From the NCBI GenBank assembly GCA_030053915.1, contig JASGCT010000001.1, forward strand, positions 62,001 through 126,000: a stretch of DNA of 64,000 nt, given 5' to 3'. The translations under genes and the position numbers were made by a program. Source of the stretch: Alphaproteobacteria bacterium. Lineage in GTDB: Bacteria; Bacteroidota; Bacteroidia; Chitinophagales; Chitinophagaceae. How positions within the stretch are numbered: position 1 is the first letter of the stretch; each line of letters begins with the position of its first letter. This document shows, one piece after another, positions 46,101 through 64,000 of the stretch. Below the pieces are notes generated by a model. That model saw only the letters and a program-made list of their open reading frames with translations. It searched no databases and was not told where the DNA came from.

Positions 46101-49100
46101 TTAGCTACAACATTTAATGATATCACATTCGGGTCAAATTGACAGTATGTGCGATTGGTATCACTAACTTGTTTAGTAATTGTTGGATTTGAATAAACAT
46201 TAATAGCACCACTTACACTTGAAGTTTGCCAACGCGCTTGATTGATTGCCGGAATATTAACATTGGTTACTACCACATAATAATATAATGTTCTCACAAT
46301 AGATTGATCCGGTGTATATGTATTGCTTGTGGCACCAGGAACTGCTACACCACCTGTATTGCTATTGGTAGTATTTCGATACCATTGATACGTTAAAGTT
46401 CCTAATCCATTCGCATTTGCGGTAATACTTAAAGGCGTGCTATTATCGGGTGCCGAACTTGTTCTACAATAACTAGTCCCCGCTAAATTTACTGGCGTAA
46501 TTGTAATTCTGTTATAAACAATCACTTTACCACTAAAATACGGATTGGCAACTCTACAATTTGAACCAATACCTGTTGCCGGGAATTGATTATCGATGAC
46601 TACGTAATAATAACTGCTATCAGACACATTGGTGGGTGGCGAAAATGATGATAAGTTGGATCCAGAATTTAATTGGGTTGCCCCTGAGGTGCTTTGTAAA
46701 CTATTTCTAAACCACGTATAATTTACAGTACCAGGCCCCCCATTTAAAGAACCTGTAATTGTTAAAGGTCTTGCTACGTCATTCACAATGTAAAAAGTAT
46801 CTTGGCTACTATTAAAATTAGTAGCTTGTATTGTTGGTATGGCATACGTACTAACCCTTCCTGTAATGTTACTAGTGGTGTATCTACAACCTGTTTGTGC
46901 CCCGTTATAACCATTATCTACTACCACATAATAACGCCTAATTGCATTAGTATCAACATTAGGATATATTGTAGTTTCGTTAGAAATAGTCCCATCAGCA
47001 TCACTTAGTACTTGCCAACCATTAAATGCATTGGGGGACGTATTCGTTTTTTTGTACCATTTATAACTTAAAGTACCTATATTATTAACTAATTGTGCCC
47101 CAATACTAATTGGCAATATTTGATCTGGTGGCGTATTAATACAATAATCATAATTTGTACTATTTACAATTTCAGGTGAAATTATTGGACTAGCATAAAC
47201 GCTTATTCTACCGCTTAAACTCGAGGTAGTTTGACAAGCGCCATTAGCCGAATTTCTGATAATATCAAAATACCAAAAATTACCTGCCGTAACATTTGAT
47301 GGGGTTCTCGTAGTACTTGTTGCCCCAGAGATAATACTGGCATTGGCAGTATCTTTTATACTATTTACATACCATTGATGATTTACAACGCCAGCGGAAT
47401 TAATTGGAATAGAGGCTGTTATAGCAAGTGGCGTGTAGCCAAAATTATTTATACAATACGAAATATCAGATGCATTTGGTTGTGCGGTAATTCTTGGCAA
47501 GGCAAAAACACTTACTTGACCCGTTGGGTTAGGAGTTGGTGATTCGCAAACGGTGCCACTAAAGGTTACAGTAGCAACCATATAATAATATCTACTTCCT
47601 AAGTTTACGGAATCTACAGGCGGCGCATAACCAACACTTGAATTAGGACCGCTGATTTTTGTACCGCCCGTTGTTACCGCTGTATTAGTATAATACCAAG
47701 AATACGAAATAGTTGAACCCGGTTTAGTGGTTACACTGATATCGAAATCAGGTACGTTCATTTGGTTTTCACAGTAATTTCGTGGGGTTGTATAAGTAGG
47801 TCCTAAAGTTATAGTAGCGCCAGTATTTACGGTAAATAAACCACTCACCCTCGTTGGTGTCATACTACAATTGGCAGGACCACCATTATTAAGTACTGCG
47901 TAATAATATAATGCAGTATCAAAATTACTACTTGGATAGTAAATACCTGTTGTGTTGGAATCGTATCTATTTCCTGTTGAATTATTTTGGCTACTATTAC
48001 GATACCACACATATTTTAATGTACCAGTACCACCGGTATTTCCAACAACCGAAATAGTATCTGGGCGTTCGCCTTGACAGAACGTTAAACTTTGAGGATA
48101 GCGACGATAATTTAAGTCATTTGTTATTACAGGACTGGTATATACCGCAATTTTACCACTCACACGGGAGGTTGTATATCTACAAGAGGCGCCTGCAATG
48201 GTATTATTGTCTATTACTAAATAATAATAACTGGTTTGAGGAGACGATACATCGGGGGCTTGCATTCTTTGCGCATTACCATATACCGAGCCACCGCTAT
48301 TTTGGTCAACTGTTGTTTTAAACCATTGATAAGATAAATTACCAATACCACCCGCTGTATTAGATGTTACAATTAAATTGGTAGGTATGCCTCCCAAAGC
48401 TTGGGTACAATAATTGATATCGGCATTGTTGATGTCGGTTATTATAACAGGATTGTTATACACTTTGATATTGCCACCCAAAATACTAACACTTGTATCA
48501 CACGCGGCTAAACCGCTACTATTACTTAATACGGTGTAATAGAACGAACTATCGGTACTTGAAGTTATAGGTGCTATTGAGTTGAAAATTTCGTTCATTA
48601 TCTCACCAGTAGTCGTGTTTTTATAATTGGTTATATTTGATATTTTAAACCACCTATAGGTTAAAGTGCCCACATTACTATCTAAGGATGCTGTAATGGT
48701 CAATGGTGTAGAAGTAACATTGATACAATATTGAACTGCGGCATTTGAAATTTGAGCATTAATACGTGGTTTATTATACACCCGAATCACACCACTTAAA
48801 TTACTTGTTGTATAACGGCAGGCTATTGGTGCTGCGGCAATTTCATATACGGCATAATAATAATAGGCGCCCGTGGTATCTACAGCCGGTGTAATTATGG
48901 TGTCTCGAGCATCGTTAAATAAACTGGGGCGTGTTGTTGTGCTTAATTCGTATCCGCTATAACTATTCATTTTAGTTTTGTACCAGTGATTTTTTATAAC
49001 ACCAAAGTTGTTTTCAATAGTATTTGTTATTCTTAAATTTAATATGCCAGCCGGGGAATTATTTAAACAGTAATTTGTAGGATTGTTAAAGTTTGACGAA

Positions 49101-52100
49101 TATGAATTTGTGGTAATAATTGGCGCTGAATAAATTCTTACGGTGTCAAATATACTATTCACTTCAAGTCTTGAATTTCTATTAAGTACTTTTACAAAAT
49201 AATAATACAAGCCAGGCGTGCTACTTGGTACATTATACGTAGCGTTACTACCTACATAAACAGTATCTGTATAAGTTGGCTGGGAACCCGTACAACGATA
49301 CCAGCGATATTCTAAACTTGTACCTGTAGCACCATTTAAGTTAGCAACTACCGTAAAGTTAATGACATCGTTTTTACAATAAGTAGCATTGGTAAAACCA
49401 GGAACACCTGGTTGCATGGTTATTACAGGCGGAGCTTGAACAATTCTTGCACCACTAATATTACTTGAATTTACGCAAGACGTTGTTGTGTCTGTTACAT
49501 TTACCCAATAATAACTAGTGCCATCTAAAGTATTTGACGGTAGATAACTACTTAAAGTAGCACCTTGTATTGACATCCTAGAGGCACTTAAATAAGAACT
49601 ATCTGGAGCTACATTCCATTGATATTTAACACGCGTTTCAACAACTTGTACCGATAAGGGTACCAACGGTTGCCCCAAAGTAATTACCACTCTATTCGCA
49701 TCAGGCTGGGTTGTTATATTAGGCGCACTAATGATAATACTATCACTAAGAGGTGTATAATTAATACAACTACCATTTGCTACTTCTAAATAATAAAAAT
49801 AAGTGCCACGTACATTAGTTGGAGGGTATAATGTGGAACTAACAAAATTGGTAGGGGTGCCGCCACTGGCTAAACGATCGTTAATAGATTTAACATACCA
49901 CCTATAGGTTAGTCCAGCTACTTGAGTTAAAATTAGAGGTGAAACCCCCGCCATGGGCGTATTAATACAATACAAGCGCGTGTTTCTAAAATTAGCTGTA
50001 TCCATAACACTGGGGCGTGAATTTACTGTAATAATACCACTATTAGTTGATGAATCGCGACAATTTTCATTATATACCACAACATAATACGTATTTGCAC
50101 CCACTGTACTGATATTTGGGAATAAACTATCCATGCCAGTATTAGACATCCCAACTGGTGTAACTTGGTTTTGAAGAACCCGTGAGGCATTATACCATTC
50201 GTAACGCACAACCGTTGGTAATGGGTTGTCTGCTACTTTAGGGCCTGCTTTCACACTAATCTTCAAAGGAATTACTTCTGAAGTTAGGTTTTGACAATAA
50301 TTTCTGTTTACCGAAAAACCAGTTTCAGGTGTTATTTGCGGTTTAGGATTTACTGTTACATTGGTTCCCGCTGCCGACCTTACTGTATTACAAGAAGCAT
50401 TGAGCCCACCATTGGTTACTACAACATAATAATAGCGTTTTGAAGTATCGAGGGTGGATGGTGTATAAGTAGTTGTTGTGGCGCCTGATAATGGAGTACC
50501 ATTTTGATTGTCGGTGCTATTATAGGTAAAATACCATTGATAGAACAAGGGGTTACCCGGTTTGTTGGCAGTGGCTGCTACCGCTAATAAATTTACCACA
50601 TTGTCCGAAACGCATAAACTTCTTGATATTGGTGTAAGTGTTAAGACTGGTGTGGTATAAACGGTATCAAATCCGCTTAAATTAGACGTTGTATTGTTAC
50701 AAGCACTTAAACCACTTCCATTATAAGCAATTACATAATATTGTTTAACCCCAATTGGATCATTATTAGGTGGTGTATAGCTAAGTGACGTTTGACCAGG
50801 TATCATTGTATTCGTTGAAGCAATTAAATCCCTTACAAACCATTGATACGTTAACGCTTGCGAATAACCACCATTGGCGTTTACCGCAATTGATAAAGCA
50901 TTTTGATTAGCATTTAAACAATAAGAAACCGGTGTTGGATTGGGGTGCATTGTGAAACTAGGCGAATTAAATACCGTATCAAACGCTATATAGGCGGTTG
51001 AGTCGTAACAATTTGCCGTGCCATATAAATATTTAATATAATAGCCATAAATACCTTTGTTAATGGGCGGATTTTGTAATGGAGGATTATAACTAAACAC
51101 ATTTTGAACCACAGGAACACCATTATAGGAGTTGACAATAATAGTATTTGTATCGCGATACCAGGTATAATTATTGGGCACCGTACCCGCTATTCGTGTA
51201 AATGATAGCCCATCAGAGGCATTGCCTGCCACATAACAATATCTTCTATTAACAGAAGGCGGTGTAACAGCAATAATTGGTTGTGAAGCAACTTCAAAAT
51301 AAGTACTTAACATTGTAGTATCACTACAACCCCAAGCATTCGTACTAATAACATAATAATAAAAACTATCTGGAACGTTTATATCAAACTGGCGACTAAA
51401 ATATTTGGTTATGGTTGGATTGTTGTCAACCACTGCCGACTCAATAGGCGTTGCCACATTAAAGGTGGGTGTTTTTGATTTATACCATGCATACGTGAGT
51501 TGATTACTTGGCACCTCCTCGTTCACATTTGCACGTACAGAAATAGTATCATAAACAATCATTGAGTTCGTAGGACCATCGGCTTGACAATATTTATAAA
51601 CTGCACTTTGTGGACGCACACTAAATGGTTTGGTATTAATTTGTAAACGAGCAAAAGACACACTTGTATCTGTGCAATTATTGGTATTCGTTGCAACTAC
51701 ATAATACCAAAACGTATCAGCCACGTTTGTTACTGGTGTATAAGAACTCGTGGTAGCTGTTGTGGACGCATTGTTGAATACCCTTGTTGCCATGGGCGAT
51801 CGTAAATTATTGGTATTTCTAAACCACTGATATTGTTGAATATTTGCTACAACATTTAAAGATACTGCGCCAGGAGTAGCTGTAATATTTAAGGTTGTTG
51901 CTGCATCATTTTTACAATATATTCTGTCTTGATTAGACGCTGAAATGAGTGGCGAAGAACGAATAAATATTTTACCACTTAAATTACTGGTGTCATTAGC
52001 GCAACGTGGATCGGCACCGTTATTAATAATTACAAAATATTGGTTGGTGTCAATTAAATTAGTAGGCACAACTAAAGTAGCGGCATCGCCACCCACTAAA

Positions 52101-55100
52101 ATTTCTGTAAAGCCACTTCTTTGGTCGTTTTTAGTACTAAACCAGCGGTACGTTAAATTATTGCCATTATTAGAACTACCATTCACCGACAACACAAAAG
52201 TATTGGTTCTTTGACATAAGGTTTGCGTAGTTACATTGGGCTGACCCATTGCATCAATGGTTGGTTTGGCCAAAACCAAAACGTTTGGACTAATTAAACT
52301 TGTTGCCATATTACAACCCATAGGTCCACCGTTATTGATGATTACATAATAATAAAACGACCCAACAGCATTGGTAGGAGGGGCATAACTACTCGTTATA
52401 GCACCCACCACACTTGGAGCGCCAGACGAAAGCACAGAATTGCTACCATTATTGTACCATTGATACGTTATTCTACCTACCCGTCCATTGGTTAAATTAA
52501 GTGTGGTTGTTAATGGCGTGGAGGTTTGATATTGACAGAAGAGTTGGTTGGCAGATTGGTCAATTGATACAGCTGGCTGCCCATATACTAATACCAAACT
52601 ACTTCGAAGCGTGTTAAAGCTACAATTACCTACTTGCTGCGTAACCTTGGCATAATAATAACTACTATCAGATGCACTGACCAAAATAGACGAGGTAGAG
52701 GCAAGATTATTTACACCGTCGCCATTTCGGTTGGCGGGCGTAGTAATATCAATACCTGTATCTATAATATTGGGTGCTTTATACCAATTATAAGTTAAAG
52801 TACCTGCACCCGAGGCTGTTACCCTATGTGAACCAATATTAGATGGCTGATTCACACAATACGCCGTATCGCCCGATCGTGTAAAACTTTCAATGGTTGG
52901 ATTGCGCAACACTATATATTGTCCAGATATTTGGCTGGTACTTGTACAAGTATTACCATCTATTACTATCACCCTAAAATATATTGTATCAAATACAAAT
53001 CGGCTGGGAACAAAGAAAATGCTGGTATCTTGTGAAGCACTTACTGTATAATTTTGTCCGGTTATTACCCTTTTATAGGCTTCTTCACCACTTTGGGTTT
53101 CAAAATAATACCATTGATAGTTATAGTTATTAATTCTGCCTTTACTAAATGTAGCATAGAAAGTATCGGTAGAAAGTAAGGTATTACTTTGGCATTGCGC
53201 TTTATTACCCTTAGTAATAGATAATGGTTGTGGTGTTAAATTAACTACAATCGGGGCACTTACCGCAGAAGTTGTTTTACAACCACCATTAGCTTGGGTA
53301 TAAATTACTCTATAATATTGATCACCTACATTATTGGTATTTGGTTTTAAAGAATCAGACGACTCTCCTAATAACGTAGTAAAATTACCCATACTCGTGT
53401 TGGGGTTATAGTCAAAGCTAATTTGCCAGAGGTATTCAAAGCTACCGCCTCCTTGTCCAAGTTGCTGACCTGTTGATTTTATAAAGCTTCCTTGATTACC
53501 TTGGCAATATCTGGCATTGAACGAATTAACAATACCCGGCGATGGATTACCCGTAATTATGATTCTGCCCGAAACTTCGCTGACGGTAAAGCACTGACCA
53601 GCTAAGGTTACCACTACATAATAACGTATTGTATCCCCCACGTTAACACCAGCCGAGTTGGCAAGTTGTGTAAATGAATCCGTTGGCTCGGTTAAGGTTG
53701 TAAGGGTGTCTTTCATGCCATTAGGTTGTGTTCTAATGCGATACCACTTATAAGCTAAAGGCCCGTTAGCAGTAGCCCGGAGGCTTAATTTAATAGCCTC
53801 ACTGATGCACACAAAAGTATCACGGGTTCTAAGTGAGCGGGTAATAAGGGGTATTGGGTTCACAATGATATTGCCAGTGAGGTCGCTAGTGTCGGCAGAA
53901 CAAGACCTTAAATTAGTCGCTGTTGCACCGTTAGACAATATTACAAAATAACGTACCGTATCAATATTGCTGGTTCTGGGTAATAAACTATTAGAAGTCT
54001 CTCCACGATTTTCGTTGGTTATTTTTAAAGCATTTTGAATAGCTAAGGCATCGGTTGCACCTTGAGGTGAGTTAGAATTTGGAGCCCTATACCAAGTCCA
54101 GATTGTATCACCAATAACACCTATATCGAAACTAGTAACGAGTATTCTACCCGGTTCAAAGGTTTGACAATACGACACGGCGCCAAAGCCGCTTGTACCC
54201 ACTATTCTTGGTTTACCATAAATAGTAATTCTTCCCGAGAGGTTGCTTGAAATGGAATTGGTAGGACAGCCCACTAATCCCGTAACATTTGCCACAACTC
54301 TATAATATCGTGCGCCAACCACATTGGTAGGTGGTGATAAGTCCCCACTAACAGTTAAACGGGTTGAAACTTGCGTTAATGCATTGCTATCATACCAGTC
54401 ATAGGTTAAAGTAGCCCCGCCAAAATTTGGTGCCGCAATGGTTGTAACATTGGCGGGAATTTCATTTACACAATATTGGTATGATGTTCCGTCGATACTA
54501 CTAACAGCAGGTAAGGTTTTAATAATAACATTTCCGCTATTATTGCTTGTATCGGCACAACGTGGTATTTTGTTATATACGATAACGTAATACGTAGAGG
54601 TATCATTTAAAGGTCTATTGGTATTCGGTCTTAACGAATCGGTTGTTTCGAGTAAAGGCGTGTTTTGATTTGGATCATTGCGCGTATTTCGATACCAGGT
54701 ATATTTTAAATCGGCATTACCTCCACTTGGGGTTAATGAAGCGATTACTCTTAATGCCTGAATCGCTGCAGGATTTGCATTTTGACAATACGTAATACTG
54801 GCCGTAGTTGGATTGGTAACTGTGGGGGTAACATACACGTTCAAGGTTATTAAACTAGAGCGTACGCTATCGCAAACTAAACCATTTCCTAAATAAGCCA
54901 CTGCATAAAAATAATTAGTTGCAGCATTGTTAATAACCACATTATCAATTTGAGGTGTTAAATTAGACGCATTGCTACCTATTGCCACATTATTAATTAT
55001 AGTTCCTAAGGAAGTACTAGCGGTTGTGTTTTTAAACCATTGGTATTGCAATCCTGCGGGCACATCGGTTGTGTTTACAGCCGCCGCAGATACCGTAAGG

Positions 55101-58100
55101 GCAGCGATAGTTTCGCTAGAACAATAGGTAAGATTATTCGGGGTAACCAAGGAAATTGTTGGCGCCGAATACACGTTTATGCGTCCCGAAATTAAACTCA
55201 TCGCCGTATCACATCCTCCTAAACCACTTAAACCACTTCCATTATTTACTATTACATAATAGTATCTTGATACAGAGCTGTCGGTTGGCGGTCCATACTG
55301 ATTCGTTGAAGTTGGTGGCACAGAAACGGCATCATCGTTGCCATACACATTGTCATAGCTTTTGTACCAAGTATAATTTAAAGTGCCTAAGCCATTATTA
55401 TTTGTTGAAACAATCAAATTATCACCACGAGATCCAACTTGGGCACAATATTTTTTAAGAGTTGTAAAATCTCCAACAACATTAACGCTTGGTTTGGCAT
55501 AAATATCAACAGCGCCACTATAACCGCTCGTTCTATTACAACCAATAGCATCATTATATAAAATTGTAAAATAATAATAACTTCTACCAGCAACCGTATA
55601 ACGTGGTTGGTAATTGTCGCCTGTTGCAATTTGCGTGCCTGTTCTACCCGTATTATTATCGTCGCGATACCAGATAAACATATCGGGACGGAGAGGTGTA
55701 ACATTTATTGTCCAAGTAGGTGTGGTATTATTTATACAATATCTGCCACCATTTAACACGGCTGTAATGGTTGGGGTGTCAAAAACGGCAATTCTGGCAA
55801 GATTTATATCACTTGTAGCCCTACAACCCACAAAGCCGTTGGTTGCTACAATATAGTAAAACGATGTATCCACTTCAGCAACCGTAGGTTTAAATGACGT
55901 GGCATTAGCGGCAACTACGGCAACGCCGTTTGCATAGACATTATCAGAACTTCGATACCATTGATACGTTAGATTGCTTTTATTAGTTCCTGGTGCTGGT
56001 CCTACAGCAGTTTCATTCACCCGTAACGTGTTCACTAAATCGACGCTGGTATTAATACAGTAAGTGTTTGCCATTAATGGCATTGGCACTAAATTGGGTA
56101 ATGTATAATTATTAATTGGATAAGAAACATTACTAATAATTGATGATGGACACCCTGTATTTATAACCCCGGCAATATTAATCCGAACGCGATAATAATA
56201 GGTGTTTGCAGGAACAATTCGGGGTGTATAAGAATTTTGATTGACAACTGTTGTTACATTTTGTACCGTATCCACATTTTGAGAAAAATCGCTTCTCGTG
56301 CTCGATTCCCAAATATACGTTGGGGTGCTTCCAAGTGGTCCTGTGTAAGTAACAGTAAGTGGTGTTATTCCAGACGAATTAGAACAATAATTGACACCCG
56401 TGGCAGGCATGGTTGGTAAATTACTTACTATGGGCGCTTCAATCACCGTAATAGAACCCGAAATATTACTTGTTGTAACACAACCACTTAAATTACCTAC
56501 TTGATTATTTGTTATTACTACATAGTAATAGCGCACATTAGCACTATCTGTATATGGTGCAAAATTTGCATTATTGGTGTTAGGTAAAAGAGAATCTGAA
56601 CCAATGGTTGAATTGTAACTCTTGTACCATTGATAGTTTAATAAATTATTGGTATATGGCTTGATATTTGCCACAAATGAACGAGACGGGAAATTTAAAC
56701 AATAGGACGTATTTTGATAATTGCTCATACTATCAATAGTAGGTTGAACATACACTCTAATATTAGCTGGAAGTGGTCCTGATGATACAGAGTCGCAAGC
56801 AGGCAAATTAATTCCAGTTAAATACGCGCGTACATAATAATAGTTATTATTGACACCCTCGGTATAGTTCAAGTCTTTTAAAAATTGTAAGCTATTATTA
56901 TTAACACCTGCAGTTATAACAGTTCCATTTTGGTTTAAATTAATGTTTTGACGATACCAACGGTAACCGATAGTTGTTCCTGTAATATTAACCGCAGCTG
57001 CATTGGTTGTTAAATCTCTAAAGTTATTGATACTACAATAACTTGTATCGCGCGGCTGTAGCGTTATAGTTGGCGCACTATAAACATCAATTCGTCCAAA
57101 TACGGCGCTTGTTGATGTATTGCAACCTACAGGACCGCCATTGTTTGCAACGGCATAAAAATATCGAGATACCGCCGAGTCTAAAGCTGGTTTAAAAGTC
57201 GCTTGAGATCCTATCTGCATAGTGCCTCCTGTGGCTACTGGGTCTATGGTTTTAAACCAAGTATAGATTACCGTACCATAAGCATTGACAATACTTGTTG
57301 ATAAAGCAATATCTGCTAAACCACCTACTACAGCACAATAACGATACGCTCCAGGATTTACAGCAGTAATGCTTGGGCTATTAAATACTGCTATTCTGCC
57401 AGAATAGTTACTAGTACCATTACAACCTGTTTGACTATAAGTTCCAATTGCATAATAATAACTCTCTCCAGCCACACTAACATCTGGGATAGTTGCACCA
57501 TAACTTGTTACCGGGCTACCAAATAAGGTACCATTAACGCCCAAATTATTTGAATCACGATACCATGACAAGCTTGATAAGGTTGGTAAATTATCTACAT
57601 TCGCATCGGTAATTGAAATAGGCGTTATTGTTGAAGTACCTAAGCAATAATCAAGTGCCGCAGCACCGGTTAACGTTAAAAGTGGTTGCCGTGTTACCGT
57701 AACGGTTACATCTCGCGATGTTCCTGCCGAGTCTACGCAAGTAGGAATAGTATTTTGAACAATAGCACGATAACGTCTTGTACCTACATTATTAATAACT
57801 GGTGTAAAAGCATTATCTGGATTTCCAGCAGGAAATAAAGTGCCATTGTCGATATCTCGCCAACGATAGGTTATATTAGCATTATTAGAGCCATTTAAAA
57901 CGGTGCTTCCAGCAATCAAAGTGGTTGGATTAGGGGCTGCTATACAATAATTAAAAGCCGTCGCATAAGTAGCAATTAAAGTGGGACGTTGATAAACAAC
58001 AATCTGACCAGTTTTGTTAGACCAAACCGAATCCGAACATCCTTGAGTGCCCACACCACTTACTAAAGCCCGATACCAAACAGTTCTGTACTCCGAAGTA

Positions 58101-61100
58101 GATGGGGTGAATGCATTTGAAACCACACCAGAGCTAATATTAGATTGCGACCCTGAAACAAAATTACCATAGCTATTGGCATTACTTGAATTGTCAATAT
58201 ACCAACGAATAGTAGGTGTTCCAGGACCAACATACGTAATCGTTAAAGACCTTGGTGTTGCATTATCACAATAACTTGTATCATTATTATACGGTTGTAC
58301 TGTAATAAGCGGCGCTGCAATTACCCGAATTTCCTTTGAAGTAATCAATCTGGTTTCACAACCACTTAAAGTCAAAGGACCATTTTTAATAAACGCATAA
58401 AAATAATTGTCTCTTACGCGATTTGTGGGCGGACGATAAAAATTTATTTGAACACTTGCTAACGATGAATCGTTGGCTTGTGCCGCATCTAATTGAAACC
58501 AGCGATACGAAATTGAGTTCAAAGGCTGGTTGGCTAAAGATGAAGTTAGTATCGCAAGACTATCCGCTGGAATACCTTGACAATAAATTTGAGGCGTTGA
58601 GGACGTATTTCCCCAGGTGTTGGACAAACTAATATTAACGCCAACAATAGGTTTACTGTAAATATTTAAGACAGACGTATTTGATATAATGCTATCACAG
58701 GCTGGTAAATTATTTTTCAAACTGGCTACTGCATAATATCGATTGACAACACCAGAATATGCATTACCACCATATATTACTTGTTCTACAGGATACTGGG
58801 TTGTGTTGGCGCCTATTACTAAGGTATCTGTTAACCGATTTCTAACTGTACCTGTTTGTTTATACCACTGGTATTGAATCGTAGCAAAATCTGTATTCGT
58901 AGCTGTTGCTAAAGTATTTAAAGGCGGTAGCGTATTAATGGCGGCATCGCTACAAAAATCAACACTCACAATGGGCTGGTTTGTTATGATAGGTGCGCTA
59001 TAAACAGCTACATAACCACTGGTACTAGACGTGGCAACATTACAACCTGCAGGTCCACCATTACTTACTACCATATAATAATACCTTGTATTGGCTGTAT
59101 CTATAAAAGGATCAAATGTGTTACTATTACTAGACCCTATCAATAGACCGTTGCTATTTGTTTGAGTCGTATTTTTATACCACCCATATACTAAAGAACC
59201 ATATCCATTGCTTACCGATGTGGTAAACGTATAACTTGCTCTGGCATTGATTGTAGGGCTTGCACAGAATTTACGATTCAAGTTAAAGTTATTTAATTCT
59301 GTAATAATTGGGCTGCTATAAACGGTAACACCGCCGCTAAAATCTGTAACTACAGAATCAACACAACCACTCGCCCCTATATTGTAAATAACAGCCCGAT
59401 AATAATATCTACCAACTAAGCCATTACTTGGGGTGTAAGAAGATGCTGCGCCAGGTGAGATAGCACCATCGCTTGATATAAGTACGGAATTGTTTGTGGT
59501 TCGGTCAAGGGTACGATACCATTTAATCCGTGCGGTGGCGGTGTTAGGACCTACATAAATTATCTCTAACGGTGTTATTGTAGAATTTTGACAATAGCTG
59601 ATATCTGCGTTACTTGGTTGTTGTATTATGCGCGGCGTCGCAATAATATTATATCTTCTACTATTTTCTCCTTGGGTTATACAATTTATGGAATCTGGTC
59701 CATTTTGAACCGAAATTTTATAATAATTACTTCCAATCCGGGCATTTTGAGGACGATAATACAAAAGATTTTCACCTACAATTCGTGAATTTCCCGGTTG
59801 TACTTGATTTTGGTCTAAGGAATCCCAAAAATATCTAAAGGCTTTTTTACTGTCGTTATTTAAAATTGAACCATTGATTATAACACCAATACTATCAATA
59901 ATAGCACCAGAACAGAAACTTAAATCAACCCCAGAATAATTATTAGTATATGGTACGTTTCCTGTTCCGGGTGTTAAATCGGGTTTGCGATAAATACTAA
60001 TGGTTGCAGAATTTGAATTAATACTATCGCAGGTTAAGCCCAAGTTTAAACTAGCCACACCAAAATAAATATTATCCGTACCTAAAACTAAACTACCGAT
60101 ACCGCTGAAAGTGGGTGTAAAGCTTGTAGTAGTTGCACCTGCTACTAACGTATTAACTCCTGTGTTTTTATACCAACGATACACTAAACCACCAGGTGGA
60201 AGATTATCCGCATTGGCTACAATTGTTATTGGGTTATTGTTGATGGTTCCTTGTGGCACGGTACTACAATATTCGCGTATTATATAGGGCTGTGTGGTGA
60301 TTGTGGGCTGTCGGTAAATACCAATTCTGCCGCTCGTTGTAGTACTGGTATCTACACCGCACACCAAAGGTCCGCCATTATTTATAGATGCATAATAGTA
60401 AAAATTACCCGTAACATCAATATACGGCTGGTAGCTTGTTGTGTCGCCGGGTGCTACGGCTGCGTCATTACCATTGTTTATTATATTATCGGTACTTCTA
60501 AACCATGTATAACTTAAATTCCCATAACCACCATTATTTACCAATATTGTTAAAGCGCTGGACATTCTAGAGCCACTATTACCCACACAATAATTAGCTG
60601 CGTTAAAATTGCTAATGGTTAAGGTTGGTTCGGCATACACCTCTATCGCACCTGTAGCTAAACTTGTAGCACCCGAAGTAGCATCACAACCCTTTTCTTG
60701 ATACCTACCTACAGCATAATAAAATAACCGTCCTACGGCGCTTGTACTTGGGGCTCTATTAAAATAACCACCAGGCGTACTTATAATTTGAGTACCCCCT
60801 GAATTATTACTATTTGTGTTGCTATAGTAAGCAAAATTTATAGGTGTAGCCAAATTGGGTGCCGTATTATTATCACGGGCTATAAATGATATCACAGTAG
60901 GGTTGTTGCTATTTAAACAATACTTGGCTGCCGCATTATTGTCTAAAAAAACTTGTGGTTGTTTCACAACCGAAATAACAATATCGTTTCCTAATTCGGC
61001 AACGCAATTCGCTTTAAAATTTCTTACTTGAACGCGATAGTTCGATGTGCCATTTGCAGTAATGATTGGACGATAAAAACTATCCGTTCCTAAGGTTGTA

Positions 61101-64000
61101 CCCGGGCTTGCCGTATTATACCAACGATAGCTTATTACAGCATTATTTACTCCTGTGCGTGGACTGGTGTTTATGGCTAATGCATCAACTGTTGTATTTT
61201 GACAATATGCCTGGTTTGCTATATTAAGCACCCCGCCACTTGTTATAATGGTTGGGCTTTCATAAATATTAATAAAACCGGTTTTGTTTGAGGTAAACGA
61301 ATCGGAACAACCCGCTATAAATACTCTTAATACGGCTCTATACCATCTGGGGCTTCTAATAGCTGCAGACGGTGAAAAACTTAAGGTTTGGCCAGATGTA
61401 TTAATTAAACTTGTACCAACAAGTGTCCCCAAATTCGCAGCGCTATTTGTATTATCAACGTACCAATTAACATACGGTGCTGGGGTTGAGTTGGTTGGTC
61501 CATTATAAACTACTTGAACTGGCGCTAAAGATTCCGTAGAACAATAATTGGTGTCTATATTGCTTGGGTTAGTTACACTTGGTGTAGCTATGATACTTAT
61601 CTTGGCACTGATATTACTTGTTCCAATACAACCCGCCACGCCATTTTGAACAATCACATAATAATATCTGTCACCGATTCTTGTATCAGGAGTCAACACA
61701 TTACTTGTATTTATTATAACCGAATCCGTAGCTGTATTAATCGAAGAACCGTTAGTATTAGCATACCACGAATACGTAATGGCATTATTTAACACATCGT
61801 TGCCAATGTATCCTAATCTACTAATATTTAATACCAAATTTGCGATCATACTCGTTTGACAATAGGCGATGGTTCTTGTAGGATTTCCCCAGCCCACGCT
61901 TGTATCTATACTAAGCGGAGCGTTCAAAAATTCTGGTTTTCTATAAATATTTATTGTTCCTGTGTTAGAAACCACACTGTCGCAACTACCTATTCCTAAT
62001 CGTAAACTGGCCACTACATAATATCTGTTGGCAGTTCCGTCAATCAAATTGGCTTGGGCTCTTGTTAAATTACTATTTGTAGCATCCATTATTTTTGTAT
62101 CTGTATTAAGGTTTTGAGCTAAGCCAGATTGACGATACCACTGATATTGCAAAGTTGCATCCTCGGAATTAACTACGGTTACCGTTGCGCTTAAATTATT
62201 AATAGTAGGTTCGGTACTACAATAGTTAGCTGTTGCCACAGGTTGCGTACCTACCATGGGTGGGCTATAAACTGCTATTTTACCACTTATACTACTTGTT
62301 CCTGCATTACACTGTGAGGGTCCATTGTTCATGGCTATCATGTAATAATAATTTGTTTTGGCGGTATCTATAAAAGGATTAAAATTTAAGTTATTGCTGG
62401 GTATTACAGCCAAGCCGCTTCCAAGTGCATTTGTAGTACCTTTATACCAGGTGTAAGCAATATTTCCATACGCGTTGGTTACCGTATTGTTTAAACTATA
62501 AGTACTTCGACTTCCAGCACTTGCGTTTAAACAAAATCTTTGCACATTGTCAAATCCAGTTCCTGTGGTAACAGATGGTGGGCTAAACACTTGGATGGCG
62601 CCACTATAACTTGAGGTGCCAAAAGTATTACACCCAGTTGGTGTATAAGTTGTTATAACATAATAATAATTAATACCTGTTAGATTATTTGAAGGCGTGA
62701 TGGATACATAGGTACTACTGGATGCCCCAAAAGCTGTCCCCGAAAAACCAGAACTTGAAGTGCTTTGATACCATTGAACACCATTATTTGAAATCGGCGA
62801 TGGCGCACTACTGGTATCACTAATTGATATTTGTTGAACATTTGGCAAGTTTTGATTAAGGCAATAGTTAGCACTCATGGTTCCACTGCCACCTAAAATT
62901 AATTTTGGTTGGCTATACACTGTTATTTGGATAGGACTTATTAATCCAAACGTATCTGCACAAGTTGTTAATCCGTTATAAACCCAAACCCTATAACTTG
63001 TTGTGCCCGGCACCGCAACACTTGGCGACAAAGTATTTGCACTAGTAGTTTGCAGGGTATTTAGATTTAACCATGTATACACCACACTTCCTGCCGATAC
63101 ATTGCTACTAACCCTTAGAACATTAACCCCAGCGCCAACACAATAACTTTGGTTTGATACATTATTGCCACCGCCACTTGTTTGAAGTGTAGGTCGTTGG
63201 AACACGGTGATAGCGCCACTATAATTACTTTCTACACTATCCGCACAACCACTTGCCGAAACATTATAAACAACAGCTCGATAATAATAAGCGCCATACG
63301 TATTTCTATCAGGTGTATAGTTTGATGGCACATTTGGGGTAATGGAATTATCTGCTACTACAACAACGCCCGTTGTGTTTGGTGCAAAAGAACGATACCA
63401 TTTTACTCTTAATGTAGCACTTGCTGGTCCAATATAAGTAACACTAAGTGGCGTAATAGTTTGATTATCGCAATAAGAAATCGTTGATACACTTGGATTG
63501 TTGGTAATAACAGGTGCCGCGATAATATCAAATTGACGACTATTAGAAGATGGTTGCTTACAATTTAATGAATCTGGTCCATTTTGAACGTTTATTCTAT
63601 AATAATTAGTACCTAATCGTACGTTTTGTGGCTTGTATGTAGCACCTGTTTGACCACTAATGGTGCCTCTAAAAATTTGATTCAAATCTAAAGAATCCCA
63701 GCTAAAGCGTATATCTCTTTTTGTATTACTAAAAATGGGACTACTTAACAAAATACCAATACTATCAACAAGAGATCCTGCACAATAATTTACTACCGAA
63801 CCATCGCCTATAAAATTAGTAGTATAATTAATATTTGAGCCTGCTCCAGTAAATTGCGGTAAGGTATATATATTAATTACAGCATCATTCGATTGGAGGC
63901 TATCGCAACTTAAACCTAAGTTTAAACTTGCTATCGCATAATATCTGTTTTCTGTACCTGCTTCTAAATTTCCTAAACCACTAAAAATAGGATTTAAAGT
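37157..64000 (-). CDS. Giant Ig-like-repeat surface protein with T9SS type B sorting domain (N-terminus beyond window)
   Basis: The frame is open from 64000 to the stop at 37157-37159, giving at least 8947 residues; an internal TTG at 63751 is not the start, since the frame continues unbroken across it. The chain is about 82 modules of roughly 100 residues. A typical module has YCQN or YCxN, then LxV, a QWY or TWY core, a YTP turn, YYYVVVxNGG, a second Cys (xxCxTTSN) and SGxIxVYxxP. This matches Ig-like domains associated with CHU_C proteins; the two cysteines probably form one disulfide per module. A PKD-like module and a CHU_C/type B T9SS domain end the chain, so it should be exported by T9SS and fixed on the surface. 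SprB, the gliding adhesin of Flavobacterium johnsoniae (about 6,500 residues), is a model; whether this protein serves gliding or attachment is inference. Confidence 0.9.
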   Translation of the reverse strand, partial: TLNPIFSGLGNLEAGTENRYYAIASLNLGLSCDSLQSNDAVINIYTLPQFTGAGSNINYTTNFIGDGSVVNYCAGSLVDSIGILLSSPIFSNTKRDIRFSWDSLDLNQIFRGTISGQTGATYKPQNVRLGTNYYRINVQNGPDSLNCKQPSSNSRQFDIIAAPVITNNPSVSTISYCDNQTITPLSVTYIGPASATLRVKWYRSFAPNTTGVVVVADNSITPNVPSNYTPDRNTYGAYYYRAVVYNVSASGCADSVESNYSGAITVFQRPTLQTSGGGNNVSNQSYCVGAGVNVLRVSSNVSAGSVVYTWLNLNTLQTTSANTLSPSVAVPGTTSYRVWVYNGLTTCADTFGLISPIQITVYSQPKLILGGSGTMSANYCLNQNLPNVQQISISDTSSAPSPISNNGVQWYQSTSSSGFSGTAFGASSSTYVSITPSNNLTGINYYYVITTYTPTGCNTFGTSSYSGAIQVFSPPSVTTGTGFDNVQRFCLNASAGSRSTYSLNNTVTNAYGNIAYTWYKGTTNALGSGLAVIPSNNLNFNPFIDTAKTNYYYMIAMNNGPSQCNAGTSSISGKIAVYSPPMVGTQPVATANYCSTEPTINNLSATVTVVNSEDATLQYQWYRQSGLAQNLNTDTKIMDATNSNLTRAQANLIDGTANRYYVVASLRLGIGSCDSVVSNTGTINIYRKPEFLNAPLSIDTSVGWGNPTRTIAYCQTSMIANLVLNISRLGYIGNDVLNNAITYSWYANTNGSSINTATDSVIINTSNVLTPDTRIGDRYYYVIVQNGVAGCIGTSNISAKISIIATPSVTNPSNIDTNYCSTESLAPVQVVYNGPTNSTPAPYVNWYVDNTNSAANLGTLVGTSLINTSGQTLSFSPSAAIRSPRWYRAVLRVFIAGCSDSFTSNKTGFINIYESPTIITSGGVLNIANQAYCQNTTVDALAINTSPRTGVNNAVISYRWYNTASPGTTLGTDSFYRPIITANGTSNYRVQVRNFKANCVAELGNDIVISVVKQPQVFLDNNAAAKYCLNSNNPTVISFIARDNNTAPNLATPINFAYYSNTNSNNSGGTQIISTPGGYFNRAPSTSAVGRLFYYAVGRYQEKGCDATSGATSLATGAIEVYAEPTLTISNFNAANYCVGNSGSRMSSALTILVNNGGYGNLSYTWFRSTDNIINNGNDAAVAPGDTTSYQPYIDVTGNFYYYASINNGGPLVCGVDTSTTTSGRIGIYRQPTITTQPYIIREYCSTVPQGTINNNPITIVANADNLPPGGLVYRWYKNTGVNTLVAGATTTSFTPTFSGIGSLVLGTDNIYFGVASLNLGLTCDSINSNSATISIYRKPDLTPGTGNVPYTNNYSGVDLSFCSGAIIDSIGVIINGSILNNDSKKAFRYFWDSLDQNQVQPGNSRIVGENLLYYRPQNARIGSNYYKISVQNGPDSINCITQGENSRRYNIIATPRIIQQPSNADISYCQNSTITPLEIIYVGPNTATARIKWYRTLDRTTNNSVLISSDGAISPGAASSYTPSNGLVGRYYYRAVIYNIGASGCVDSVVTDFSGGVTVYSSPIITELNNFNLNRKFCASPTINARASYTFTTSVSNGYGSLVYGWYKNTTQTNSNGLLIGSSNSNTFDPFIDTANTRYYYMVVSNGGPAGCNVATSSTSGYVAVYSAPIITNQPIVSVDFCSDAAINTLPPLNTLATATNTDFATIQYQWYKQTGTVRNRLTDTLVIGANTTQYPVEQVIYGGNAYSGVVNRYYAVASLKNNLPACDSIISNTSVLNIYSKPIVGVNISLSNTWGNTSSTPQIYCQGIPADSLAILTSSLANQPLNSISYRWFQLDAAQANDSSLASVQINFYRPPTNRVRDNYFYAFIKNGPLTLSGCETRLITSKEIRVIAAPLITVQPYNNDTSYCDNATPRSLTITYVGPGTPTIRWYIDNSSNANSYGNFVSGSQSNISSGVVSNAFTPSTSEYRTVWYRALVSGVGTQGCSDSVWSNKTGQIVVYQRPTLIATYATAFNYCIAAPNPTTLIAGSTVLNGSNNANITYRWRDIDNGTLFPAGNPDNAFTPVINNVGTRRYRAIVQNTIPTCVDSAGTSRDVTVTVTRQPLLTLTGAAALDYCLGTSTITPISITDANVDNLPTLSSLSWYRDSNNLGVNGTLFGSPVTSYGATIPDVSVAGESYYYAIGTYSQTGCNGTSNYSGRIAVFNSPSITAVNPGAYRYCAVVGGLADIALSTSIVNAYGTVIYTWFKTIDPVATGGTMQIGSQATFKPALDSAVSRYFYAVANNGGPVGCNTSTSAVFGRIDVYSAPTITLQPRDTSYCSINNFRDLTTNAAAVNITGTTIGYRWYRQNINLNQNGTVITAGVNNNSLQFLKDLNYTEGVNNNYYYVRAYLTGINLPACDSVSSGPLPANIRVYVQPTIDSMSNYQNTSYCLNFPSRSFVANIKPYTNNLLNYQWYKSYNSTIGSDSLLPNTNNANFAPYTDSANVRYYYVVITNNQVGNLSGCVTTSNISGSITVIEAPIVSNLPTMPATGVNYCSNSSGITPLTVTYTGPLGSTPTYIWESSTRSDFSQNVDTVQNVTTVVNQNSYTPRIVPANTYYYRVRINIAGVINTGCPSSIISNVSYPINNYTLPNLVPMPLMANTYCINTSVDLVNTLRVNETAVGPAPGTNKSNLTYQWYRSSDNVYANGVAVVAANATSFKPTVAEVDTSFYYIVATNGFVGCRATSDINLARIAVFDTPTITAVLNGGRYCINNTTPTWTINVTPLRPDMFIWYRDDNNTGRTGTQIATGDNYQPRYTVAGRSYYYFTILYNDAIGCNRTSGYSGAVDIYAKPSVNVVGDFTTLKKYCAQVGSRGDNLIVSTNNNGLGTLNYTWYKSYDNVYGNDDAVSVPPTSTNQYGPPTDSSVSRYYYVIVNNGSGLSGLGGCDTAMSLISGRINVYSAPTISLVTPNNLTYCSSETIAALTVSAAAVNTTDVPAGLQYQWFKNTTASTSLGTIINNVAIGSNASNLTPQIDNVVINNAATNYFYAVAYLGNGLVCDSVRSSLITLNVYVTPTVTNPTTASITYCQNANPAAIQALRVIASLTPSGGNADLKYTWYRNTRNDPNQNTPLLETTDSLRPNTNRPLNDTSTYYVIVYNKIPRCADTSNNSGNVIIKTLPAVSSIDGTSYQYCVNEIPANVTTIAAPNFGGATLTYDWYDSNALTQVSTRLTVSGDLSPPTNVVGARYYRVVANVTGLVGCPTNSISSNLSGRITIYGKPRIVGTSGFGAVSYCQTFEPGRILVTSFDIGVIGDTIWTWYRAPNSNSPQGATDALAIQNALKITNENRGETSNSLLPRTSNIDTVRYFVILSNGATATNLRSCSADTSDLTGNIIVNPIPLITRSLRTRDTFVCISEAIKLSLRATANGPLAYKWYRIRTQPNGMKDTLTTLTEPTDSFTQLANSAGVNVGDTIRYYVVVTLAGQCFTVSEVSGRIIITGNPSPGIVNSFNARYCQGNQGSFIKSTGQQLGQGGGSFEYLWQISFDYNPNTSMGNFTTLLGESSDSLKPNTNNVGDQYYRVIYTQANGGCKTTSAVSAPIVVNLTPQPLSITKGNKAQCQSNTLLSTDTFYATFSKGRINNYNYQWYYFETQSGEEAYKRVITGQNYTVSASQDTSIFFVPSRFVFDTIYFRVIVIDGNTCTSTSQISGQYIVLRNPTIESFTRSGDTAYCVNQPSNIGSHRVTASGAGTLTYNWYKAPNIIDTGIDITTPANRNGDGVNNLASTSSILVSASDSSYYYAKVTQQVGNCSFNTLRSSLVLVYGQPAVSIDQSANQLFCQYQTSTPLTTTLNLTNGRVGRITYQWYNNGSNSVLSSGAPSVVGAITSSYAPPTNAVGSFYYYVIINNGGPMGCNMATSLISPNVLVLAKPTIDAMGQPNVTTQTLCQRTNTFVLSVNGSSNNGNNLTYRWFSTKNDQRSGFTEILVGGDAATLVVPTNLIDTNQYFVIINNGADPRCANDTSNLSGKIFIRSSPLISASNQDRIYCKNDAATTLNITATPGAVSLNVVANIQQYQWFRNTNNLRSPMATRVFNNASTTATTSSYTPVTNVADTFWYYVVATNTNNCTDTSVSFARLQINTKPFSVRPQSAVYKYCQADGPTNSMIVYDTISVRANVNEEVPSNQLTYAWYKSKTPTFNVATPIESAVVDNNPTITKYFSRQFDINVPDSFYYYVISTNAWGCSDTTMLSTYFEVASQPIIAVTPPSVNRRYCYVAGNASDGLSFTRIAGTVPNNYTWYRDTNTIIVNSYNGVPVVQNVFSYNPPLQNPPINKGIYGYYIKYLYGTANCYDSTAYIAFDTVFNSPSFTMHPNPTPVSYCLNANQNALSIAVNANGGYSQALTYQWFVRDLIASTNTMIPGQTSLSYTPPNNDPIGVKQYYVIAYNGSGLSACNNTTSNLSGFDTVYTTPVLTLTPISRSLCVSDNVVNLLAVAATANKPGNPLFYQWYFTYNSTDNQNGTPLSGATTTTYTPSTLDTSKRYYYVVVTNGGLNASCNTVRSAAGTNVTVNPKPQITPETGFSVNRNYCQNLTSEVIPLKISVKAGPKVADNPLPTVVRYEWYNASRVLQNQVTPVGMSNTGMDSLFPNISTVGANTYYVVVYNENCRDSSTNSGIITVNSRPSVMDTANFRNTRLYCINTPMAGVSPLILTQVAGLTYRWYVKSINDRLASGGTPTNFVSSTLYPPTNVRGTYFYYLEVANGSCINYTPLSDSIIISAPNITTQPDANRVVITLGQPLVPLSVQVVETRVKYQWNVAPDSSYLSASRMSIQGATLSSYLPSNTLDGTSYYWVNVTDTTTSCVNSSNISGARIVQAPPVITMQPGVPGFTNATYCKNDVINFTVVANLNGATGTSLEYRWYRCTGSQPTYTDTVYVGSNATYNVPSSTPGLYYYFVKVLNRNSRLEVNSIFDTVRIYSAPIITTNSYSSNFNNPTNYCLNNSPAGILNLRITNTIENNFGVIKNHWYKTKMNSYSGYELSTTTRPSLFNDARDTIITPAVDTTGAYYYYAVYEIAAAPIACRYTTSNLSGVIRVYNKPRINAQISNAAVQYCINVTSTPLTITASLDSNVGTLTYRWFKISNITNYKNTTTGEIMNEIFNSIAPITSSTDSSFYYTVLSNSSGLAACDTSVSILGGNIKVYNNPVIITDINNADINYCTQALGGIPTNLIVTSNTAGGIGNLSYQWFKTTVDQNSGGSVYGNAQRMQAPDVSSPQTSYYYLVIDNNTIAGASCRYTTSRVSGKIAVYTSPVITNDLNYRRYPQSLTFCQGERPDTISVVGNTGGTGTLKYVWYRNSSQNNSTGNRYDSNTTGIYYPSSNFDTALYYYAVLNNGGPANCSMTPTRVSGLFTVNTGATITLGPTYTTPRNYCENQMNVPDFDISVTTKPGSTISYSWYYTNTAVTTGGTKISGPNSSVGYAPPVDSVNLGSRYYYMVATVTFSGTVCESPTPNPTGQVSVFALPRITAQPNASDISYCINNFGYTPLAITASIPINSAGVVNHQWYVNSIKDTANASIISGATSTTRTPSNVTAGNFWYFDIIRNSANGACQTTSSLSGRISVYASPIISPEIVNSTNYDYCINTPPDQILPISIGAQLVNNIGTLSYKWYKKTNTSPNAFNGWQVLSDADGTISNETTIYPNVDTNAIRRYYVVVDNGYNGAQTGCRYTTSNITGRVSTYAIPTIQATNFNSSQDTFYIVNDVARPLTITGSLNGGPGTVNYTWFRNSLQSTSGATQLNSGSNLSSFSPPTNVSDSSYYYVVIDNQFPATGIGSNCRVANPYFSGKVIVYNRITITPVNLAGTSYCRTSSAPDNSTPLSITANANGLGTLTYQWYRNTTNSNTGGVAVPGATSNTYTPDQSIVRTLYYYVVVTNVNIPAINQARWQTSSVSGAINVYSNPTITKQVSDTNRTYCQFDPNVISLNVVANNSGLGSINYSWYSNTIINQFVGSILVVPASESATTYQPDNSVTGTKYYYVIVTNPGAPEACKYTTSNFSGFYLINPGATISNPVNFSSPFNYCKNQSSGVNTLSVTAQGTNLEYQWFANSQERNTDGWAISNLKNIGANSNAITPDVDSVLVRYYYIVVTDRNGAACSTTSAVSRAVNVFGVPAINSSSLVARDYCVNAFSTFPLNISASLEAAPSTTVAINYQWYSDTVFRQTSANAISTGVGLNTINPNVSVASKRYYYAILRNNSNQNCVTTSALSGLIQVFASPVVTVAPEFLQNKQVCVNQDFNLTANASLVNNVGTLGYTWYYCDDASFTNSVAVQNSNNSSITTRYLTASSKYYYITVTNGGPAAACNISTSSLSGRFDVYATPTVTAPTGAVTICQYAPINQLPITSVQATTGGTGVIRYQWYQTEVQGDPGVGGFLIPNQTATFYQPDADTVGSFYYYVVIANGGPATCNIKTSATSGLYKINSAARIVQQPSSNPGIVEYCQNPNNAVAGVTPLTISATTASGNVPTYNWFKTEQRNTNSGYSVANGLNNNYTPQIDSAIDIYYYVVVNNTEGGVTCGTTSNLSSQFKIYAQPSVTSGANFSSNVYCLNDNTDNTRVGVNVSFTKTKAGATQSINYQWYLSSVYADTTTGNAIIDGSGSQATYGPSTTTAGRRYYYVVASNALRGTCNAKSFTTLFKDVFERPIIDSLDNRFLTARSYCRSDLDADSLKVYASFPGQMSLGGNLSYQWLRGTVNDISSLSSISGGVGYGIRPYTTSLAASSYYLAVIISNPLTAPLACRTNTSLVSGKIDVYVPPTTNPAGQNYSSNWNTALTTCNPQQLQNFTGPNPTLQGFSNLPLRYQWYRNSRRDTIGGITIDMLGANNAVGTIQPGTSTPAIFYRPVQLGTWFYYYIITNDAAPEGCKTAISLNVSQSVTAGITINQAPVITYPSDFSQPQTVCQTTSGSSARSFSITVDPTSYTGNISYTWYKNNTSTFATAQQNQTNANDGSGRTTASFTPSTTIATTVTSFNRYFFVVVSASNCATTSNATGLYTVDATPAIIAQNNVLNGNVYCNTETANTLKVGNNFSGSAFNYQWFSSFDSTNAYTTSVAETFQANDSFFVPQITTASRKYYYITIANANNTSCRVTSGVSGAIISYAEPVIFNQPSAAEKKYCFGASLTDTDSLKIQATNGGYGTISYKWVRYTSPLVQTDVPNSNSSGFLPRTDAVGEASYYAVVSNGSPKPACATRISSNSGLIKVYRAPVITTNVSPNPQSNLCQYSTPVSLFISDNNGGYGTNTYQWFSSASATNVGGVSLDGQTRSSYTPSTLVSNTRLYYYVVVNNGGPANCGVTASSVSGEVFVSPSPVITTQPNNIDQGFCQGGTAEPFNIVVNQNNGGVTTAQWFGNSNRSFVGSFPVNGATSISFSPPTLTSGQNFYYAIVTNTSNCSDTSDFSGIVSVSAQPSIESGNQPLSFQAACQNISSGVQILSAFPRDGVGTPTYQWYYNNTNSVDIATATRIDGANFASYNPSVATTGTRYYFVNITYPTASCNPVKSNTATVVVNAFPSITNNVSSASANYCVNDLSVTNLSVTAQVTGGGTLNFQWYENNVSNTSNAQAIAGVNARGTNYTPLVNTASQKYYFVVVSNSIGAFSCAATSNVSGLVSVFNLPTIDPSGQPSGIDQNYVQNQDPTPLTVTVNPGSGTFVGYQWYKASQADYNSGEAVQTLDATSAQFKPITTTISDNYYFVVANNENNLKACYVTSNFSGLIRVINSTSIFIPDSITAYNYCQFTVPAAVVTYSFALSSGSATRIQWFQNTSKTYLGATRLPNDTLLSFNPITTSIGTYYYFVVVTTSNGSVSTSNFTGAVSIISSPTFNLTPPSEVKYCVNGVAQPLVYTTTGSSQPVFTWFINSQNANVGGTPIPGETDGSYTPTVNLTGVRYYYVTAVFNGGGGSCNSIIGPVVAVQVYQQPTISSNPVTTATYCQGNNGQPAAAITFTASNGGYGNNTIRWYKRTNSQSAQLIPNETLTTYIPSTAAIDTSYYFATLENGGQQGCNTVQTTESRVIISGSPVITRQPDSAQYDLSANTVKALSVDATTGGGILTYRWFSSPVRATVNGAFTDSTRSSFVPKVNSLGITYYYVVLDNGTSAACRTVTSIAVPVKVFAQPQIVVQPKDSSYCNQGITVPLLVRIAPVTGIRVYYQWYSNSLNNTNSGIAINGATDSFYTPTSLNPSAAPITTYYYCVITNDGPDGVNRAVTRAAAIIVDNLNTFSLNFASSNSQTVCRDGTALPITLSASSATQSAISSLMYRWYESTVKTNSGGTLITNPTNGNGTAITRYTPSTSNIGTKYYYVIASGNFNNQTKCNTITSAIATLNVFGAPIVTKNISDTSYCSGEVVRPLEISYLKEGTRVSINWFRNTSKSTIGAVNLNSYDTIYRPENILDSIIYYAVLLDSASIPGCNTTYTNFAAVNISSKPVLTNSTVNFCSGQPINITLNSSVINTRITWIRYPNVRIQNDTARGVGIINETIVDTSGLSDPLNITYYIDLVAPKGCANLASPYIITINPTPQVKNVGVDRRYCVSNNGSPTVTEPLNIELTISSASVNWRQTNPTIGLNATNGIGTIPSFTINQSINRITYDTFRAIPVLGICVGRETDVAYYSVSPSIGNLQARLQGRQSNTVCQGSNPNLRAFYPTGGLIQGTRYTWTKSLTMNGTYSGIGTTTDTLFRGPIQTDSVAFYRVIAEFGCAATSNILAVRAIYNPIVRILPSTNTIGIVPNSSISFTADIIDTVLGIYKATRMSYLWSDSLGTILPSDENNVSQTFLANRISNTNKFTVTATSLDNSCEASSSIRVVVNDSILYPLISTNNILTPNGDNRNDVFEITDYSTFRSRGYKISFKLFNSFGKELLSEVDNFSRWDGTIDGQTVNTGIYYFNIIVTKDNTASGGGENDLIIKNRGTITVITN
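37160..37475 (-). other. CHU_C / gliding-motility-type T9SS sorting domain
   Basis: The last 105 residues of the giant protein begin near ILTPNGDNRNDVFEI, the hallmark of the type B (TIGR04131, PF13585) domain, and continue with FKLFNSFGKELL, WDGTIDG and TGIYYFNIIV. This domain directs export through T9SS; type B cargo often needs a PorP/SprF-type partner, which is not in the window. Confidence 0.93.
37476..37770 (-). other. PKD-like module before the sorting domain
   Basis: About 95 residues without the YC start (ISFTADIIDTVLGI, YLWSDSLGT, KFTVTATSLDNSCEAS) resemble a PKD or Ig-like spacer. It separates the cysteine-paired modules from the sorting domain. Confidence 0.6.
54866..63907 (-). 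repeat. Six-module super-repeat (about 640 residues) in the giant protein
   Basis: Take the Cys-Asp-Ser codons of the F-type module as a marker. They occur at 63899, 61976, 60023, 58691, 56789 and 54866, giving steps of 1923, 1953, 1332, 1902 and 1923 bases. Each full step holds six module types in the same order. Type A often has NGPDS or a similar turn; B has TYVGP and SGCADS; C has a YRVxVxN-like end; D has TGCNxTS; E has NAYG and NGGPxxCN; F has CDSxxSN. The 1332-base step lacks exactly the C and D types, a difference of 591 bases (197 residues). Confidence 0.85.

Follow-up and report, generated by a model that had tools for sequence, protein, structure and literature searches.

How did six unlike types of Ig-like module come to be repeated in one fixed order along a giant bacterial protein, and does the conserved order mean that neighbouring modules depend on one another? 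The window, by which we mean the whole stretch of 64 000 nt that was analysed, corresponds to C109:62001-126000; the draft genome comprises 2.7 Mb on 166 contigs. The nearest GyrB sequences (~80 %) belong to Chitinophagaceae and Sediminibacterium-like records, most of which are metagenome-assembled. A single minus-strand frame at this locus continues for at least 13 292 codons without a stop (C109:99160-139035). The 5′ end of this giant ORF is cut by the contig end, so that 13 292 aa represents a lower bound and the N-terminus of the protein lies outside the contig.

With a profile derived from the protein's own sequence, we identified ~109 Ig-like modules of ~105 residues each, with the consensus YC...(Y)xWY...P...YYYxV...N...C...TS..SGxIxV...P. 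Exactly two cysteines are present in 101 of the 109 modules, and the pair probably forms a disulfide bond. A Pfam scan found Laminin_G_3 twice in the N-terminal part of the protein, whilst the C-terminus scored 41.2 bits against PF13585 (CHU_C; cut-off 27) and 41 bits against TIGR04131 (cut-off 35). The genome encodes the type IX secretion system (T9SS) translocon protein SprA (family TIGR04189, 1987 bits). No PorP/SprF partner lies next to the giant gene, the downstream neighbour being a glutathione peroxidase gene instead, and the only PorP-like gene found in the genome is a single weak match, below the cut-off, on another contig. We also observed that a LamG-containing segment of ~700 residues is duplicated near the N-terminus, beyond the window (aa 35-765 and 1458-2147; loci L009 and L010), with a local score of 611 compared with at most 92 for shuffled sequence.

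Several ORFs elsewhere in the assembly were considered as the missing 5′ part of the gene. The N-terminal fragment on contig C126 was not adopted, as its modules match those of contig C58 in order, and no 15-base overlap between contig ends was found. The LamG-rich ORFs on contigs C153, C138 and C24 were rejected as complete genes with their own ends. At least five further large LamG-containing ORFs, of about 2800-5900 codons, are present in the genome (on C153, C138, C24 and C52, and at C109:38233); together with the two giant genes and a short relative on C85, the LamG ORFs account for about 4.7 % of the genome. The window itself contains a further T9SS substrate at 10406-12424, a metalloprotease of the thermolysin type (M4) that carries a T9SS sorting domain of the Por_Secre_tail type.

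Table 1. Features of the giant ORF, in window coordinates (m, module number)
Feature	Position	Strand	Remarks
Giant ORF, in-window part	37157..64000	-	Frame ends at window 37157
C-terminal CHU_C / T9SS type B sorting domain (PF13585, TIGR04131)	37229..37462	-	
Ig-like modules m55-m108	37742..54817	-	Without A-F order
Separate six-module duplication, m73-78 / m79-84	45224..49099	-	
Block 8, modules A-F (m49-m54)	54818..56731	-	Most diverged block
Block 7, modules A-F (m43-m48)	56732..58612	-	
Block 6, modules A, B, E, F (m39-m42)	58613..59944	-	Without C and D; closest to block 4
Loss junction B6/E6 (m40/m41)	59240..59360	-	
Block 5, modules A-F (m33-m38)	59945..61891	-	Closest to block 3
Block 4, modules A-F (m27-m32)	61892..63814	-	641 aa
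Module F of block 3, in-window part	63815..64000	-	Block 3 continues beyond the window
Long F-to-A linker	61861..61984	-	41 residues, Cys to Cys
Similar long F-to-A linkers	63784-63907, 59914-60031, 58582-58699		
Blocks 1-2 and lone F module			Wholly outside the window; locus L009

The repeated order can be followed by a Cys-Asp-Ser (CDS) motif in the sixth module (F) of each block. The Cys codons of this motif lie on the minus strand at window positions 63907, 61984, 60031, 58699, 56797 and 54874, and the steps between them are exactly 1923, 1953, 1332, 1902 and 1923 bases, identical to those of the initial annotation. Three more CDS motifs are found past the window edge, at steps of 1929, 1932 and 1935. 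The initial annotation had described six module types in fixed order, five times; types and order stand, but five was too few, as the A-B-C-D-E-F array consists of eight blocks, seven complete and one without C and D, with a lone F module in front. The blocks share only about 30-50 % protein identity. A residue-level comparison of aa 2360-7406 with itself gave peaks at offsets of 643, 1286, 1932 and 2577, in agreement with the diagonals predicted at ~640 residues, and a second set at 434, 1087 and 1733 that is caused by the two-module gap; no offset peaks were seen when the same segment was shuffled. The mean module score at lag 6 was 136, compared with 70 ± 6 for permuted modules.

Module scores averaged 141 within types and 57 between types (AUC 0.95), and for 45 of 47 modules the best match anywhere in the protein is a module of the same type. 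In the IQ-TREE phylogeny, B, D, E and F each form one group, and A and C each do so apart from one divergent block 8 module. The six type labels need 6 changes on this tree, against a minimum of 5 and a mean of 30.8 for shuffled labels. As had been predicted, same-type modules from different blocks therefore cluster with each other and not with their neighbours, on which tree and best matches agree. The block pairs (1,2), (3,5) and (4,6) recur in the trees of most module types, and the block-by-block score matrices of different types are correlated, with a mean mirror correlation r of 0.55 (null 0.00 ± 0.055, maximum 0.26).

These congruent histories support the copying of multi-module blocks proposed in the initial annotation, but not the six-module block as the only duplicating unit, as the step from blocks 3-4 to blocks 5-6 was a twelve-module event. 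On the sequence evidence, the array is a super-repeat by two marks: like-positioned domains cluster, and blocks were copied as units. The array would have grown in frame, either by tandem duplication or by unequal recombination, with several domains involved at a time. The simplest history, read from one genome, starts with a six-module duplication that produced the pair of blocks 1 and 2; in a twelve-module duplication blocks 3-4 were then copied together to yield blocks 5-6, after which C and D disappeared from block 6. A block profile found no orthologue of the block in 396 genomes of the family, only short partial matches, and a search of genome contigs with the block protein found no relative.

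The short step of 1332 bases corresponds, as had been noted, to the in-frame absence of exactly two adjacent modules, which are C and D of block 6. The later loss that the initial annotation had put at 591 bases did occur, but C and D measure 609 bases in the parent block (279 + 330), and the figure of 591 is what remains once other small indels are taken into account. At the junction, m40 resembles type B as far as about residue 91, and m41 resembles type E. The linker between them, 33 residues in length, is within the normal range, and a chimeric module, which was looked for at this junction, could not be demonstrated.

The copies are old. At fourfold sites in identical-residue codons of the closest block pairs, 0.31-0.40 of positions are identical, compared with 0.29-0.31 expected from composition, and because synonymous sites are near saturation we consider the array to be old. 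For the same pairs, NG86 gave dN of ~0.5 and dS of 1.5-2.1, the dS values being saturated and indicative only. Purifying selection acts on the array, which is not undergoing homogenization. Copying would have ceased once the copies had become too dissimilar to recombine; as dissimilar modules recombine poorly, the array would freeze without any selection on order. A different state was observed in another family of the order, where an 8293-codon ORF (G213:C30, L062) has much more similar modules (mean pair score 229) and provides a young array as a comparison.

Is a period of six special? The genome contains a second giant gene on contig C58 (C58:42175-62985; L023, L024), of 6937 codons and open at the 5′ end. 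The 1477-codon ORF at C126:3-4433 (L025), which is open at the 3′ end and has an apparent signal peptide, is probably its N-terminal part. In this second gene, the period over the first 42 modules is four (lag-4 z 8.0), and lag 6 is negative. Some of its C-terminal modules have their best matches, in the same order, among the C-terminal modules of the giant protein in the window. In its C-terminal half, the latter protein carries a separate six-module duplication (m73-78 and m79-84; mean Z 2.60, permutation 99 % level 1.82), which could not be registered on types A-F. Past this duplication, lag 6 gives way to lag 4 (m82-83 to m86-87), perhaps because two modules were lost here as well. Arrays built from the same module family in other genomes of the order have best lags of one, two, three or four. 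The four-module period of the paralogue, the unregistrable m73-84 repeat and the lags of the relatives speak against a special status of six and indicate that the copied unit varies in size. More generally, several domains are often added at once in the growth of domain repeats (PMC1553488).

The suggestion that the kept order hints at dependence between neighbours was not supported, as block copying preserves order by descent, and we infer that the six-fold order is a trace of copying and not proof of mutual need among neighbours. The direct succession of B and E in block 6, with a normal linker, also counts against such dependence. Circumstantial evidence in its favour comes from two features of the array, both of which could be due to descent. 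The F-to-A linker is 38-41 residues long from Cys to Cys at seven of the eight block boundaries, compared with 29-35 residues at other junctions of the array, the F7-to-A8 boundary having a short linker; a longer linker possibly punctuates each block boundary. Most type-specific positions fall either in the loops connecting strands 2 and 3 or around the second cysteine. A comparison of conservation in linkers and cores did not distinguish between descent and a constraint from neighbours.

An alternative explanation is that the six-module order is a functional period like that of the titin A-band, with a binding surface or hinge every ~640 residues and selection keeping the neighbours in place. 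The long linkers are consistent with this explanation, as is the location of the type-specific loops, which by Ig topology sit at the pole facing the previous module. The second six-module duplication within the same gene points the same way, and titin is most strongly conserved at certain positions of its super-repeat (PMC10665226). However, order, linker length and type-specific loops are all inherited through block copying as well, block 6 persists without C and D, the F7-to-A8 linker is short, and periods differ in the paralogue (four) and in the arrays of relatives (one to four). We regard a functional period as unlikely, although it is the strongest of the alternatives, and its more specific form, in which the six-domain block would be a true structural period, a titin-like ruler with block and F-to-A linker as a mechanical or binding unit, as slightly less probable again. 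Were the ruler reading true, a bacterium would have evolved a functional positional super-repeat in a surface filament. Somewhat more doubtful still is selection for unlike neighbours, whereby identical adjacent Ig domains tend to misfold together and duplications of several different domains survive better than those of a single domain, an idea that has been raised for other families (PMC1553488). Adjacent modules of the array are indeed less similar than chance (lag-1 z -2.8), and of the 60 possible circular orders only three give a lower similarity between neighbours than the real one. A rank of 4 in 60 is weak, however; neighbours in the C-terminal half of the protein are more similar than average (lag-1 z 2.7), and several relatives have a strong signal at lag 1 (L057, z 8.0; L070, z 6.0).

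The remaining explanations concern the reality of the blocks and the manner of their origin. A metagenome assembler could have joined or repeated similar stretches, and the draft state of the genome, in which three repeat-protein ORFs run off contig ends, is compatible with this. Copying by an assembler would yield identical blocks, though, and the divergence of the blocks in protein, the near-saturation of synonymous sites even in the closest copies and the 13 292-codon frame without a stop make an artefact very improbable. Duplication of single modules, later sorted into six kinds by convergence, is the least credible of all: the common fold and motif set of the modules would fit it but are not specific to it, and it is refuted by the clustering of types in the tree together with the congruent block histories. 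We favour, with a probability of roughly 78 %, a block-copied super-repeat within a giant T9SS type B protein that would serve as a long surface adhesin or stalk, its module order being a trace of copying.

Structure prediction is in keeping with such a role. AlphaFold modelled a single module with a pLDDT of 87.5 as an almost entirely β Ig/PKD-like sandwich, and a whole block with a mean pLDDT of 79. Foldseek searches with the single module gave weak matches to PKD, Fn3 and Ig domains, and searches with the block matched many multi-Ig chains and also GhpA of Aureispira; profile searches of the PDB returned nothing significant. Export by the T9SS is suggested because the protein carries a type B sorting domain and the genome encodes SprA, and adhesion is proposed from the architecture alone. 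The best-supported role would be that of a long T9SS-exported surface adhesin or stalk: the T9SS would export the giant protein, the C-terminal domain would hold it at the outer membrane, and, as a very long adhesin or stalk, the protein would project its LamG (lectin-like) domains and its Ig surfaces a great distance from the cell.

The giant protein can be compared with several known systems. The closest in organization are the muscle proteins titin (A-band) and nebulin, for which super-repeats and a seven-domain nebulin unit have been described (PMC10665226, PMC1553488). As in these proteins, a block of unlike domains was copied head to tail, order was kept, like positions cluster and there is more than one level of period. 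Unlike them, the protein is bacterial, exported and encoded without introns; it is built from six Ig-like domains of one family, its copies are near synonymous saturation, and there is no known partner with matching spacing. With SprB and other T9SS proteins with a type B C-terminal domain it shares great length, repetitiveness, the type B sorting domain and a T9SS in the genome, although at about twice the size or more of SprB (669 kDa; PMC9143113). The SprB repeat domain was not found in Pfam scans of five segments, which covered part of the protein. The giant gene also differs from SprB in having no adjacent SprF/PorP gene. An adjacent PorP/SprF-like gene is usual for SprB, but not strictly defining for type B proteins.

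GhpA, the protein of the heptameric grappling hook of Aureispira, is likewise a giant T9SS-exported surface protein of Bacteroidota. The block model resembles GhpA fragment 9flx (TM 0.43 by fragment length, E 1e-10). Foldseek E-values are similar for many Ig and cadherin chains, and no sequence match to GhpA was found in the PDB. The first module of the giant protein scores above the cut-off for Ig_7 (PF19081), a domain likewise associated with CHU_C, whereas the scanned A-F modules fall below every Pfam cut-off. In a limited literature search we found no description of higher-order repeats in bacterial adhesins, an absence that is weak evidence. Super-repeats were already known from titin and nebulin, and the giant protein is a striking bacterial example.

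The array is a clear case of nested multi-domain duplication in a bacterium, of six modules and then of twelve, followed by a loss, with a relative order of events that can still be read. This history has survived since the copies are by now too old for homogenization. Two giant paralogues in one genome, one with a period of six and the other with a period of four, lend themselves to a comparison of whether the order of domains in such fibres reflects history or function.
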